Of a stretch of DNA of 64,000 bases, positions 2,456 to 8,631 are shown one piece after another. Under the pieces are notes generated by a model. The model saw only the letters and a list, made by a program, of their open reading frames with translations. It was not told the DNA's origin and made no database searches. This DNA comes from Erysipelotrichaceae bacterium. GTDB lineage: Bacteria > Bacillota_I > Bacilli_A > Erysipelotrichales > Erysipelotrichaceae. The DNA lies in the NCBI GenBank assembly GCA_022772735.1, contig JALEZD010000021.1, positions 1 through 64,000 of the forward strand, given 5' to 3'. Position 1 is the stretch's first letter; every line of letters starts with the position of its first letter. A program made the position numbers and the translations under genes.

Positions 2456-3160
2456 ATGAGTAAATTTATAATTGATGATAGTTTTTGGGAGTTATTTCCA
2501 GAATCAAAAATTGGAGTTGTTTTGATTAAAAATATGGATAATACAAAAAACATTGAAGAATTAAAAAGTATGTTGAGTGTTGCAAATGAAGAGGCTAAAA
2601 AATTTATAACAAATGAAACATTTAGCGAAAATCATGTTGTAAAAGTTTATAGGGAAGCGTACCAAAAGTTTAAAACAAAAAAGGGTGCTCGATGCAGTAT
2701 TGAAGCATTATTAAAAAGAGTTGAAAAAGAAAGCTATGTAACAAATATTAATCCAATGGTAGATATTTATAATATTGCATCTTTAAAGTATGGATTACCA
2801 GCTGGGGCTGAAGATGTTGATACATTTGTCGGTGATTTAAAGCTCACCATAACAAGTGGAAATGATGAATTTTATTTGATAAACGAAGATGAAAATAGTC
2901 CTACACTTGAGGGTGAATTGTGTTATAAGGATGAGTGTGGGGCAGTTTGTCGTTGTTTCAATTGGCGTGATGGGAAAAGAACAATGATAAAAGATGAAAC
3001 AAAAAACGTATTTTGTGTTATGGAATTAATAGATTTATCAATGGAAGATAATTTATATAATGCATTAAATCTTATAAAAGATTTAACGATAAAATATCTA
3101 GGAAGCAGTTCAGAAATTTTTGTTCTAGACATAAATAATAAAGAATTAAAAATTTCTTAA
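2456..3160 (+). CDS. B3/B4 domain-containing protein
   Basis: A 234-aa stand-alone relative of the B3/B4 editing region of the phenylalanyl-tRNA synthetase beta chain. The segment from about residue 60 (Y-R-x-A-Y-Q-K-F) through residue 115 (SLKYGLPAGAEDVD) is typical of this family, as is the acidic FNWRDGKRTMI stretch further on. Free-standing members are thought to act on mischarged tRNA or amino acids, but the activity is not established. AAAGGGG precedes the ATG. It lies directly behind ppaC with a short gap; the link to pyrophosphatase function is unclear. Confidence 0.8.
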   Translation: MSKFIIDDSFWELFPESKIGVVLIKNMDNTKNIEELKSMLSVANEEAKKFITNETFSENHVVKVYREAYQKFKTKKGARCSIEALLKRVEKESYVTNINPMVDIYNIASLKYGLPAGAEDVDTFVGDLKLTITSGNDEFYLINEDENSPTLEGELCYKDECGAVCRCFNWRDGKRTMIKDETKNVFCVMELIDLSMEDNLYNALNLIKDLTIKYLGSSSEIFVLDINNKELKIS

Positions 3161-3646: not shown

Positions 3647-3704
3647 TAAATTATTAATAAATAAATTGCATTTTGTTGACAAAATAAATTTGTTAACCTA
3701 TTAT

Positions 3705-3930
3705 GTAACTGTCTATGAAAAAGAGTAGTAGTTAAAAATAGATTAAAGCGAGTCCTGGATGGTGTAAGGGGATAATTGATTTTTTGATGAAACGAGCTTT
3801 GGAGATTTCACCCCATGAAAGTAAGGTGAACGTATGTTCTGCGTTAAAGAAGAGTTGGTCAAAGTTTTTTTGGCAATATGAGTGGTACCGCGGAATTTTT
3901 CGTCTCTTAATTTATTTAAGAGGCTTTTTT
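3705..3930 (+). promoter_or_regulatory. T-box riboswitch (Arg specifier likely)
   Basis: Leader RNA that senses uncharged tRNA. Visible parts are the stem I segments AAGAGTAGTA, AGCGAG and TGGATGGTG, the CTTTGGAG element at 3797-3804, the T-box sequence TGGTACCGCGG at 3883-3893, and a terminator hairpin (3902-3910 pairing with 3916-3924, loop TTTAT) followed by six T. By position relative to CTTTGGAG the specifier is most likely CGA (3793-3795), an arginine codon, which fits the downstream argS and an inosine-modified ACG anticodon. The T-box call is firm; the specifier assignment is inference. Confidence 0.9.
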
Positions 3931-3937
3931 ATTTAAT

Positions 3938-4014
3938 GCGCCCGTAGCTCAACTGGATAGAGCGTTTGACTACGGATCAAAAGGTTGCGGATTCGATTTC
4001 TGCCGGGCGCGCCA
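3938..4014 (+). tRNA. tRNA-Arg(ACG), encoded CCA
   Basis: Acceptor arms GCGCCCG (3938-3944) and CGGGCGC (4004-4010), D arm GCTC/GAGC, anticodon loop CTACGGA giving anticodon ACG, T arm with loop TTCGATT, discriminator G and encoded CCA. It begins only 7 bases after the last T of the T-box terminator and ends 21 bases before argS, so no room is left for its own promoter outside the leader. Its transcription is therefore probably governed by the T-box. Confidence 0.95.
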
Positions 4015-4035
4015 TTTTTAATTATAGGAGGAGTT

Positions 4036-5673
4036 ATGAATAATATTGAAAAAATACTTGTAGGGAATATCGAAAAAGTTTTAGAAGAAAAATTTCAAAT
4101 TAAAGAAGAAGGATTAGTTATGGTTGAAATACCTAAATCCAATGCGAATGGTGACTATTCAAGTAATGTGGCTATGAGATTATCTAAAGCTCTAAAGAAA
4201 GCTCCTGTAATGATTGCGAGTGAAATCAAAGAAGAACTTGAAAAGGTTGAAACTATAGAAAAAATTGAGATTGCTGGACCAGGGTTTATGAACTTTTGGA
4301 TAAAAAAAGATGAATTAGCTTCAATAATCAATACTATTATTTCAAAGGGTAGTAACTATGGTGAAAATAATGTGGGTAATGGCACAAGGATACTTATGGA
4401 ATATGTTAGTGCGAATCCTACAGGTGATTTACATTTGGGACATGCAAGGGGTGCTGCTTGGGGAGATTCTATATGTAGAATTTTAAATAAAAGTGGCTAT
4501 GACTGTCTAAGAGAATATTATATTAATGACGCTGGTGTGCAAATGATTAACTTAGGCAAATCTGTTTATGCAAGATATGCTGAAAACTTTGGAGTAAAAG
4601 TAGAGTTACCTGAAGATGGATATCATGGACCAGATGTAATAGAAATTGGTAAAGAACTTGCAAATGAGCTTGGAGATTCTTGGTTAACAAAAGAAGATGG
4701 AAGAATAGAGTTTTTTAAAGAACAAGGTCGTAAAAAAGAACTTGAAAAGATAGAAAAAGATTTAGATTTATTCCGTGTTCATTTTGACTCATGGATTTCT
4801 GAACAAGGTTTATATGATAGTGGTCGTGTAGATGAAATTTTAACAAGGATGACTGAAATGGGCTTGACATATGAAAAAGATGGAGCTCTTTGGTTTAAAA
4901 CTACAAACTATGGAGATGATAAAGACCGTGTGTTAAAAAAAGCTGATGGTACATTAACATATTTAACACCAGATATTGCAAATCATATTTATAAATTTGA
5001 AAGAGGCTATACAAAACTTGTAAATCTTTGGGGTGCTGACCACCATGGTTATGTACCAAGAATGAAAGCTGCTATGCAAGCATTTGGTTATGCAAAAGAT
5101 GATTTAGAAGTTGATATAATCCAAATGGTTAGACTTGTAGAAGATGGCAAAGAAGTAAAAATGAGTAAAAGAAGTGGGAATGCTATAACTATTCGTGAAT
5201 TATGTGAAGAAACAAGTGTTGATGCAGTTAGATATTTCTTTGTAAGTAGAGCTGTAGATACACATTTGGATTTCGATATCGGATTAGCTAGAAAGAAAAC
5301 TAGTGAAAATCCAGTTTATTATGCACAATATGCTCATGCTAGAATTTGCTCTATTTTAAGACAAGCTCCTCAATTTGAAATGTGTGATAAATATGATTTG
5401 CTTGTAAGTGAAAAAGAAGTTGATTTGCTAAAATGTTTGAGTGATTTTACTGGAGTTGTTGGGGATGCAGCAATTACAAGAGCACCTAATAAAATTTGTA
5501 ATTATATACAAAAACTAGCAGGATACTTCCATGGATTTTATGCAGCACATAAAATTATTGATTCTACAAATGAAGCTTTAACTATTCAAAGATTAAATTT
5601 ATTGAATGCTACAAAAATAACTCTAGCAAATGCATTAGATTTAATAGGGGTAGTAGCACCAGAAAAAATGTAA
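4036..5673 (+). CDS. argS: Arginyl-tRNA synthetase
   Basis: Charges tRNA-Arg with arginine in the cytoplasm. The 545-aa protein has the N-terminal additional domain, the class I HIGH motif as HLGH at about residue 133 (PTGDLHLGHARG), a KMSK loop at about residue 375 (KMSKRSGNA), and a C-terminal helical anticodon-binding (DALR) domain. The ATG at 4036 is used because AGGAGGAG lies just before it; an in-frame ATG at 3985 would start inside the tRNA. The gene is downstream of a T-box leader and a tRNA-Arg gene in the same orientation, so arginine-charging status controls both. Confidence 0.96.
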   Translation: MNNIEKILVGNIEKVLEEKFQIKEEGLVMVEIPKSNANGDYSSNVAMRLSKALKKAPVMIASEIKEELEKVETIEKIEIAGPGFMNFWIKKDELASIINTIISKGSNYGENNVGNGTRILMEYVSANPTGDLHLGHARGAAWGDSICRILNKSGYDCLREYYINDAGVQMINLGKSVYARYAENFGVKVELPEDGYHGPDVIEIGKELANELGDSWLTKEDGRIEFFKEQGRKKELEKIEKDLDLFRVHFDSWISEQGLYDSGRVDEILTRMTEMGLTYEKDGALWFKTTNYGDDKDRVLKKADGTLTYLTPDIANHIYKFERGYTKLVNLWGADHHGYVPRMKAAMQAFGYAKDDLEVDIIQMVRLVEDGKEVKMSKRSGNAITIRELCEETSVDAVRYFFVSRAVDTHLDFDIGLARKKTSENPVYYAQYAHARICSILRQAPQFEMCDKYDLLVSEKEVDLLKCLSDFTGVVGDAAITRAPNKICNYIQKLAGYFHGFYAAHKIIDSTNEALTIQRLNLLNATKITLANALDLIGVVAPEKM

Positions 5674-5680
5674 TTACACT

Positions 5681-5720
5681 AAGACTTAAAAGTTTTAATG
5701 CTTTTAAGTCTTGCATTTTA
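5681..5720 (+). terminator. Terminator of argS
   Basis: Perfect 12-bp inverted repeat (arms 5681-5692 and 5701-5712, AAGACTTAAAAG and its complement) with an 8-base loop, followed by a T-rich stretch. Confidence 0.8.
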
Positions 5721-5797: not shown

Positions 5798-6019
5798 ATG
5801 CTTGATATATTAATACTTATTGTATCTGCTGCATTGATTATACTTACCTTATTGCAAAGTGGAAAATCAGACGGTATTTCTTCAGCATTCACAGGATCAG
5901 GTGGGTTAAATCTTTTTGCAAATGTAAAAGAAAGAGGTTCTGAAAAGGTTATTTCAAATTTGACTTTAGGTTTAGGGATTGTCTTCTTTGTTTTGGTAAT
6001 AATAGTAAGAATAATATAA
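5798..6019 (+). CDS. secG: Preprotein translocase subunit SecG
   Basis: Small 73-aa subunit of the SecYEG membrane channel. Two hydrophobic segments (residues 1-18 and about 50-73) flank a glycine-rich loop containing LLQSGKSDGISSAFTGSGG, the usual SecG signature. AAAGGAG precedes the ATG. It heads a secG-rnr-smpB cluster, a gene order common in Bacillota. Confidence 0.92.
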   Translation: MLDILILIVSAALIILTLLQSGKSDGISSAFTGSGGLNLFANVKERGSEKVISNLTLGLGIVFFVLVIIVRII

Positions 6020-6022
6020 TAT

Positions 6023-6043
6023 AAAAGGCGTGATGCCTTTTTA
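6023..6043 (+). terminator. Weak terminator or attenuator between secG and rnr
   Basis: Hairpin AAAAGGC, loop GTGAT, GCCTTTTT immediately after the secG stop and before the rnr ribosome binding site. It is short, so partial read-through into rnr is likely. Confidence 0.5.
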
Positions 6044-6059
6044 TTTTTAGGAGAGTATT

Positions 6060-8177
6060 ATGAAAGATAAAATTTATGAACTAATATGCAAAGGGAAAGT
6101 TGCAGAATATGATATAAAGAAAATTGCAGCTGTTTTAAAATTAAATAGTACAGGAGATTTTGTATTATTAAATAAATTTTTAAATGAGCTTGAAGATGAA
6201 TTTTTGATTGTGAGAAATTCGAAAAACTTTTATTTACTTCCTAAACAAGAGAATATTTTTAAAGGAATTATATCTATAAATTCCAAAGGGATTGGATATT
6301 TGGACTTAGAAGAATATTCTATAATTATTAAAAATAAAGATTTAAATGGTGCACTTGATAAGGATGAGGTCATAGTTAAAATAAGTAAAAAATCTCTTAA
6401 TAGTGGAAAAGTTATTCAAATTGTTAAAAGAAATACTACAAATATTGTTGGTACATTATTTTTTAATAAAAAAAAGATTAAAGTTAATTTGGATAATGAA
6501 AAATTTAAATATTTAAAAGTTGATGTATTAAATTCAAGAAAATTTAAAATTGTAGATGGTCTTAAAGCTGTTTTTAAAATTGTTAAATTTAATACGGAAC
6601 ACAATATTATCAAAGTTAATATTGAACAGATTATAGGTCATAAAGATGATCCTGGAGTAGATATTTTATCAATATTATTACAAAAAGATATAGAACCAGT
6701 GTTTTCTAAGGAAGTAATGGATGAGGCAAATTCTATAAGTCAAAAAGTACTTCCAAATATGAAAAAAGGAAGAATTGACTTATGTAAAGATACTATTATT
6801 ACAATTGATGGAGATGATAGTAAAGATTTTGATGATGCAATTAGTATTAAGAAAGAAAATTCTTATTATTTACTTGGGGTTCATATTGCAGATGTATCTT
6901 ATTATGTAAATGAAAATTCTTGGCTAGATAAAGAGGCAAGACATAGAGGTACATCAGTTTATGTTGTAGATAGAGTTGTACCAATGTTGCCACATATTTT
7001 AAGTAATGGGATATGTAGTTTAAATCCTGAAGTTGAAAGACTTACAATAAGTGTAAATATGAAAGTTGATTTTGAAGGGAAAGTATTTGATTATGATATA
7101 TTTCCTTCTGTAATAAAATCCAAATATAGAATGACATATAAAAATGTAAATAAAATGTTAAATAGTGATAAAGCAACATGTGAAAAATACAGTAGTATAT
7201 ATAGTATGATTTTGGACATGAAAGAATGTGCTGATTTAATAAGAAATAAAAGGGAAGAAAATGGCTCAATAAATTTTGATAGAGATGAAATTTTAATTAA
7301 AGTTGATTCTTCAGGAAAACCTACAGACATATTAAAAAGAGAAAGAGGTGAATCCGAGAGAATAATTGAAGATTTTATGATTTGTGCAAACGAAATTGTC
7401 GCAAGACATTTGCGTTATCAAAATATTCCTACATTATATAGAGTTCATGAACCAATTTTAAGTAAAAAACTTTTGGATTTTAAACGAATTTCTTCATTAA
7501 TGGGAAAACCATTTAAAATGAATAATAAAACTGTTACACCTAAAGATGTTCAAAAATATTTAAATGGTATAAAAGATTGTGATGAATATCCAATAATATC
7601 TACACTTATGCTTAGAAGTATGCAAAAAGCAAGGTATGATTTTAAACCAATTGGACATTTTGGTTTAGCACTAGATGATTATTTACACTTTACATCACCA
7701 ATAAGAAGATATCCAGATTTAATAGTTCATAGAATGCTTAGAAAATATTGCTTTAATAATGATTTTACAAAAACATCTCAATATGAAAAATTAATGGGTG
7801 ATTTGGCAATTGAAACTTCTAATAGAGAAAGGCTATCTATTGAAGCAGAAAGGGAAGTTAATGATTTAAAAACAGCTGAATATATGTCATATCATATTGG
7901 TGAAGTTTTTGATGGTATAATAAGTTCAATTACAAAGTTTGGTTTTTTTGTTGAGTTAGATAACTTAATAGAGGGACTTGTTCATATTGAAACATTGCAG
8001 GATGACTATTATAATTTTGATGAAAGTACCTTAAGTTTAAGAGGAGAAAAAACTGGTAAAAGATTTATTCTTGGTCAAAAAGTAAAGGTTAGATTAGTCA
8101 AAGCAAGTAAGGTTTTAAAGACAATAGATTTTGTGATTTATAAAGATAAAAAACAAAAGTTATCACGTTGGAGGTAG
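6060..8177 (+). CDS. rnr: Ribonuclease R
   Basis: 3'-to-5' exoribonuclease that degrades structured RNA and works with the tmRNA/SmpB quality-control system. The 705-aa protein has an N-terminal helix-turn-helix-like region, cold-shock/OB domains, an RNB catalytic domain with the metal-binding acidic cluster DGDDSKDFDDAIS at about residues 249-262, the conserved HFTSPIRRYPDL segment, and a C-terminal S1 domain (GEVFDGIISSITKFGFFVEL) ending in a short basic tail. Length matches the family. smpB starts 1 base after its stop. Confidence 0.95.
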   Translation: MKDKIYELICKGKVAEYDIKKIAAVLKLNSTGDFVLLNKFLNELEDEFLIVRNSKNFYLLPKQENIFKGIISINSKGIGYLDLEEYSIIIKNKDLNGALDKDEVIVKISKKSLNSGKVIQIVKRNTTNIVGTLFFNKKKIKVNLDNEKFKYLKVDVLNSRKFKIVDGLKAVFKIVKFNTEHNIIKVNIEQIIGHKDDPGVDILSILLQKDIEPVFSKEVMDEANSISQKVLPNMKKGRIDLCKDTIITIDGDDSKDFDDAISIKKENSYYLLGVHIADVSYYVNENSWLDKEARHRGTSVYVVDRVVPMLPHILSNGICSLNPEVERLTISVNMKVDFEGKVFDYDIFPSVIKSKYRMTYKNVNKMLNSDKATCEKYSSIYSMILDMKECADLIRNKREENGSINFDRDEILIKVDSSGKPTDILKRERGESERIIEDFMICANEIVARHLRYQNIPTLYRVHEPILSKKLLDFKRISSLMGKPFKMNNKTVTPKDVQKYLNGIKDCDEYPIISTLMLRSMQKARYDFKPIGHFGLALDDYLHFTSPIRRYPDLIVHRMLRKYCFNNDFTKTSQYEKLMGDLAIETSNRERLSIEAEREVNDLKTAEYMSYHIGEVFDGIISSITKFGFFVELDNLIEGLVHIETLQDDYYNFDESTLSLRGEKTGKRFILGQKVKVRLVKASKVLKTIDFVIYKDKKQKLSRWR

Positions 8178-8178
8178 T

Positions 8179-8631
8179 ATGTCAGAAAAAATTATTTCTT
8201 ATAATAGAAAGGCATCATTTGAATATTTTTTAGAAGAAAAATATGAAGCTGGTATAGTACTTTTAGGGACAGAAATAAAGTCAATTAGACAAGGTAAAGT
8301 TCAGTTTAAAGATGCATACATTTCAATAGTTAATAATGAAGCATTTATAAAGGAAATGCATATTAGCCAATACAATCATGGAAATAGATTTAATCATGAT
8401 GAAACAAGAATTAGAAAACTTCTTTTAAATAAACATGAAATAAGAAAATTAAAACAAAAGGTTTTGCTTAAAGGGTATACAATTGTACCTGTCAAATTAT
8501 ATTTGAAAAACGGTTTAGCAAAATTAGAAATTGCACTTGCAAAAGGTAAAGATCTTTATGATAAAAGACAAGTTGATAAAGAAAAAACTGCAAAAAGGGA
8601 AATAGAAAAAGCAATAAAGGCGAGGTATTAA
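8179..8631 (+). CDS. smpB: SsrA-binding protein SmpB
   Basis: Binds tmRNA and delivers it to stalled ribosomes for trans-translation. The 150-aa sequence has family hallmarks: the N-terminal NRKASFEYFLEEKYEAGI, the GTEIKSIRQGKVQFKDAY segment, and the basic C-terminal tail with KGKDLYDKRQ. GGAGG precedes the ATG. The last bases of the gene overlap by 4 nt the last bases of the convergent dehydrogenase gene. Confidence 0.96.
   Translation: MSEKIISYNRKASFEYFLEEKYEAGIVLLGTEIKSIRQGKVQFKDAYISIVNNEAFIKEMHISQYNHGNRFNHDETRIRKLLLNKHEIRKLKQKVLLKGYTIVPVKLYLKNGLAKLEIALAKGKDLYDKRQVDKEKTAKREIEKAIKARY

Follow-up and report, generated by a model that had tools for sequence, protein, structure and literature searches.

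Can a T-box govern the gene of the very tRNA that it senses? The T-box targets listed in the surveys consulted (PMC2494555, PMC11477304) comprise synthetases, transporters, regulators and genes for biosynthesis, with no tRNA gene among them, and a T-box in this position is described nowhere in the open-licence literature that we searched, an absence that is weak evidence in itself. The question is raised by a 64,000-nucleotide stretch of DNA from an Erysipelotrichaceae bacterium (the window; assembly GCA_022772735.1, contig JALEZD010000021.1, positions 1 to 64,000), in which a sequence-only reading had placed a T-box terminator 7 bases before a tRNA-Arg(ACG) gene, with argS, encoding arginine--tRNA ligase, 21 bases further on. 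Here we suggest that the first gene controlled by this T-box is probably that of the tRNA serving as its ligand, so that a familiar switch would be wired in an unusual way.

The features of the locus, in window coordinates, are as follows.

3676-3704, + strand: predicted promoter of the leader, TTGACA-17-TATTAT, which agrees with the consensus at 11 of 12 positions, more than any other site in the region
3706-3910, + strand: T-box leader, full-length match to RF00230 (111.3 bits)
3793-3795, + strand: specifier codon CGA (Arg), in a register calibrated on the genome's other T-boxes; CGA also in the relatives G017, G037, G081 and G044
3883-3886, + strand: T-box bulge UGGU, partner of the tRNA 3′ end GCCA, from the sequence and the Rfam alignment
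3902-3930, + strand: intrinsic terminator, with a 9-bp stem at 3902-3924 and a U-run at 3925-3930; its 5′ arm overlaps the 3′ arm of the antiterminator
3938-4014, + strand: tRNA-Arg(ACG) gene with encoded CCA, discriminator G and anticodon at 3972-3974 (ARAGORN; RF00005, 63.9 bits)
4026-4033, + strand: good ribosome-binding site of argS, AGGAGGAG, from the sequence
4036-5673, + strand: argS, arginine--tRNA ligase (TIGR00456, 494.6 bits)
5680-5713, + strand: terminator of argS, a 14-bp stem with a U-rich tail, from the hairpin scan

The match to RF00230 spans the whole model (1-219 of 219) and, with an E value of 9e-24, lies above the gathering score of 93; together with the tRNA and TIGR00456 matches it confirms the proposed spacing, with 7 nt between the terminator U-run and the tRNA and a further 21 nt between the end of the tRNA and the argS start codon (ATG). 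The UGGU bulge can pair with the GCCA end of the tRNA through a U.G wobble at the discriminator; TBDB allows wobble. In its leader architecture, specifier, UGGN bulge, terminator/antiterminator and argS target, the element is like the argS class of the transcriptional T-box riboswitch RF00230; it differs in its CGA specifier and in that the first gene after the terminator is the tRNA gene that this specifier reads. Chance adjacency was rejected: by a rough estimate, about 0.002 tRNA units are expected within 30 nt of any of the genome's 17 T-boxes, the tRNA is cognate and the same order is present in three other genomes.

To read the specifier, we used a register observed by eye in the genome's other T-boxes, in which six bases, and then GAG or a close variant, come after the specifier. 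This register gives the expected codons for valS (GUA), tyrS (UAC), serS (UCU), metG (AUG), thrS (ACU), leuS (CUU), ileS (AUC), pheS (UUC) and alaS (GCU), and rules out ACG (Thr) in the argS leader. There it yields CGA, a codon for arginine, the amino acid of the target argS, as it does in the T-box-argS leaders of the four relatives listed above. CGA is rare, accounting for 1% of Arg T-box specifiers in TBDB (PMC7778990), and its reading by an ICG anticodon requires an I.A pair. The Arg tRNAs found in the genome have the anticodons ACG (two genes), UCU, CCU and CCG, with no UCG among them, and the genome encodes a TadA-like deaminase (PF14437, 152 bits, G000:C18:36176) that is a candidate for A34-to-inosine editing; the ICG tRNA would thus be the only reader of CGA here, and the T-box would therefore sense the isoacceptor that it precedes. 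The earlier suggestion of a CGA specifier read by an inosine anticodon is in this way supported both by the calibrated register and by the set of Arg tRNAs. This isoacceptor is a minor one, the codons that it reads (CGU, CGC and CGA) making up 58 of the 525 Arg codons, or about 11%, in the window's larger open reading frames. A second Arg T-box (L005, G000:C23:75989-76190), before an amino-acid ABC transporter binding protein, has the specifier CGC in the same register, which the same tRNA would read through an I.C pair.

The tRNA itself has an intact cloverleaf, which is also predicted to form within the readthrough RNA. It is not the only tRNA-Arg(ACG) of the genome: a second copy, 96% identical, lies at G000:C4:34988-35064, where it opens a cluster of seven tRNA genes (Arg-Pro-Met-Met-Ser-Met-Phe); the 466 bases ahead of it, up to the contig end, contain no T-box. 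The loop envisaged in the sequence-only reading, in which the tRNA raises its own synthesis when uncharged, accordingly stands in part: the T-box and its cognate tRNA are in place, but a closed loop with the T-box copy as sole source is ruled out by the ordinary cluster copy, such that the loop could tune the tRNA supply and the window copy is a supplement. A second, unregulated copy is what that reading had itself named as weakening the loop. Three bases, each within a stem, distinguish the two copies (A7-U67 to G7-C67; U51.G65 to C51-G65), and because all three changes preserve or strengthen pairing, decay of the window gene is unlikely; these changes, with the 63.9-bit score, rule out a pseudogene. 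Within each of the genomes G044, G081, G037, G015 and G018, the two ACG genes have the same sequence. Directly after the cluster of the window's genome lies a further T-box (L011, G000:C4:34141-34383), with a specifier that reads GCG or UGC, before a peptide-transporter-like binding protein.

Among named ArgS proteins, those closest to the window's come from Erysipelotrichaceae and Traorella. In the ArgS tree, the window's genome (G000), G047, G037, G081, G044 and G017 form one clade (support 100/98), within which the T-box argS genes fall. The order T-box, tRNA-Arg(ACG), argS was found in three of these genomes from two other genera (G037 and G081; G044), and an Erysipelotrichaceae metagenome-assembled genome (L055) matches the G037/G081 type. 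In these three genomes, unlike in the window, the tRNA is preceded by a promoter-like site (TTGATT-17-TATTAT; TTGAAA-17-TAAGAT), both forms with the TG of an extended −10, and a terminator-like hairpin separates it from argS; in G037, G081 and L055 this hairpin was read by eye and not listed by the hairpin scan. Neither the inner promoter-like site nor the hairpin is present in the window species, and the tRNA and argS would therefore be joined to the T-box. In L138 (1273-1477) and L055 (2290-2490), argS is preceded by two terminator-like hairpins in series, the first that of the T-box and the second downstream of the tRNA. In G017, which is assigned to the window's genus, the same CGA leader and argS occur with no tRNA between them; G018, G015 and G135 share with the window a tRNA-Arg(ACG) directly upstream of argS but differ by its own promoter-like site and the lack of a T-box; and in G047, the sister in the ArgS tree, both T-box and tRNA are missing.

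Most simply, the clade ancestor would have had a T-box and an autonomous tRNA unit, with later loss of the inner promoter and inner hairpin in the window lineage, of the tRNA in G017 and of both elements in G047. The junction alignment agrees with such deletions, but is gappy, and transfer of argS is possible because the ArgS tree departs from the genus assignment of G017. Since in the relatives the tRNA appears with its own promoter and terminator, its control by a T-box may be peculiar to the window species. A strict pattern (T-box core, 28-58 nt, tRNA D-arm), which misses divergent T-boxes and tRNAs, matched the compact form in the window alone among 1,065 distinct genomes outside Clostridia (316 of the order, 392 of a phylum draw and sets of 40 and 379 others), and a widespread compact arrangement was rejected on this basis; among the genomes of the order, at a wider spacing of 80-110 nt, it matched only G044, G037 and G081.

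On this anatomy we propose, as the likely reading, a T-box-controlled tRNA-Arg(ACG)-argS operon in which readthrough prompted by uncharged tRNA-Arg(ICG) yields both ArgRS and the same tRNA, with promoter use, antitermination, co-transcription, processing and physiological effect predicted as follows. A single transcript would start near 3711. With tRNA-Arg(ICG) charged, the leader would terminate at about 3930, giving neither tRNA nor argS; with it uncharged, the CGA specifier would be bound by its anticodon and the UGGU bulge by its GCCA end, the antiterminator would prevail and the polymerase would run through the tRNA gene into argS. RNase P would then cut at the 5′ end of the tRNA and its 3′ side would be processed, so that the argS mRNA would retain a short leader and a ribosome-binding site of its own. 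More ArgRS would lower the uncharged fraction, more of the sensed tRNA would provide more ligand when arginine is short, and the second, T-box-free copy would supply basal tRNA. Several observations weigh against this proposal: the second copy weakens the need for regulation; raising a tRNA that decodes so small a share of the window's Arg codons may matter little; the specifier is a rare one that demands the I.A pair; and the compact form occurs in one genome, with G047 lacking both elements and the same-genus G017 lacking the tRNA. A stronger version, in which the T-box is a self-amplifying sensor that makes more of exactly the isoacceptor that it reads, we regard as doubtful. Good pairing with CGA requires inosine-34; tRNA that has just been made and is still unedited would therefore be a weak ligand, so that the loop would respond to mature uncharged tRNA alone.

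The main rival to the operon proposal accepts the same transcription and differs only in the physiological value of the tRNA, so that our confidences in the two overlap. The tRNA would be a passenger, left in the T-box transcript by the chance deletion of its own promoter and terminator; the T-box would serve argS, the cluster copy would supply the cell, the extra tRNA would lack regulatory value and its body may at most provide an RNase P site for trimming the argS leader. The existence of that cluster copy, the minor codon class, the restriction of the compact form to one genome and the T-box-argS unit of G017 with no tRNA there are what one would expect of a passenger. Against it stand the base changes relative to the cluster copy, every one of which keeps or improves pairing, and the recurrence of tRNA-Arg next to argS across the family, and we hold it to be somewhat unlikely.

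Two further alternatives would remove the tRNA from effective T-box control. It had been argued that there is no space for a separate promoter, and on the + strand no sigma-70-like match of at least 9/12 was found from the T-box promoter to 4238, in a consensus scan that may miss atypical promoters. A looser scan gave only 8/12 matches, of which the nearest to the tRNA has a −10 ending at the first base of the tRNA and hence a start inside it, and the gap from the terminator stem to the tRNA is only 13 nt. With no promoter-like site found at the stricter threshold between the T-box promoter and the tRNA, it is most likely that a single T-box-controlled transcript carries both the tRNA and argS and that both depend on antitermination; the argument is thus supported for the window, but is tempered by the three same-order relatives, in which the tRNA seems to carry a promoter and terminator of its own. 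Their promoter-like sites just before the tRNA (G037, G081 and G044), and the capacity of consensus scans to overlook atypical promoters, lend some weight to transcription from an unrecognised promoter inside the leader or terminator, without T-box control, as seems so in those relatives; this we judge improbable here, given that the 13 nt contain no match at the stricter threshold and that the best loose match would begin transcription within the tRNA. A leaky terminator, with tRNA and argS constitutive and the T-box modulating them slightly, is similarly improbable, for although the stem is A/T-rich (3 of 9 pairs are G-C) and basal readthrough supply would fit the anatomy, the mutually exclusive folds, whose arms are common from 3902 to about 3907, are predicted at −10.6 kcal/mol for the terminator against −3.2 kcal/mol for the antiterminator, a run of six U follows the stem, and T-box and specifier are conserved in relatives.

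The surroundings of the locus, and other T-boxes in the data, provided additional observations. After argS (window 5800-8631) come a secG-like gene, then rnr and smpB. The product of rnr, RNase R, can process tRNAs with an encoded CCA to maturity in Gram-positives. On the other side, a B3/4-domain protein (PF03483, 89.7 bits) is encoded two genes upstream of argS, at 2456-3160, and relatives of it (48-51% identity) occur near argS in G093 (L149) and G023 (L158). As B3/4 proteins include the CtdA editors of mischarged tRNA-Arg (PMC11477304), the window protein may be a proofreading factor. Elsewhere in the genome, a T-box with the Trp specifier UGG (L013, G000:C26:7552-7793) precedes an ABC substrate-binding lipoprotein, probably of a tryptophan transporter, and in L009 two CRISPR-DR22 repeats (39-140) at a contig end adjoin a Met T-box before a metN-like gene.

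If the operon proposal is correct, a tRNA would be controlled by its own charging state, an uncommon example of tRNA supply regulated in an amino-acid-specific way, and one could ask whether the output of a T-box includes gain on its own ligand. The related genomes, with a T-box without the tRNA, a tRNA with its own promoter and the fused form, offer a natural comparison set.
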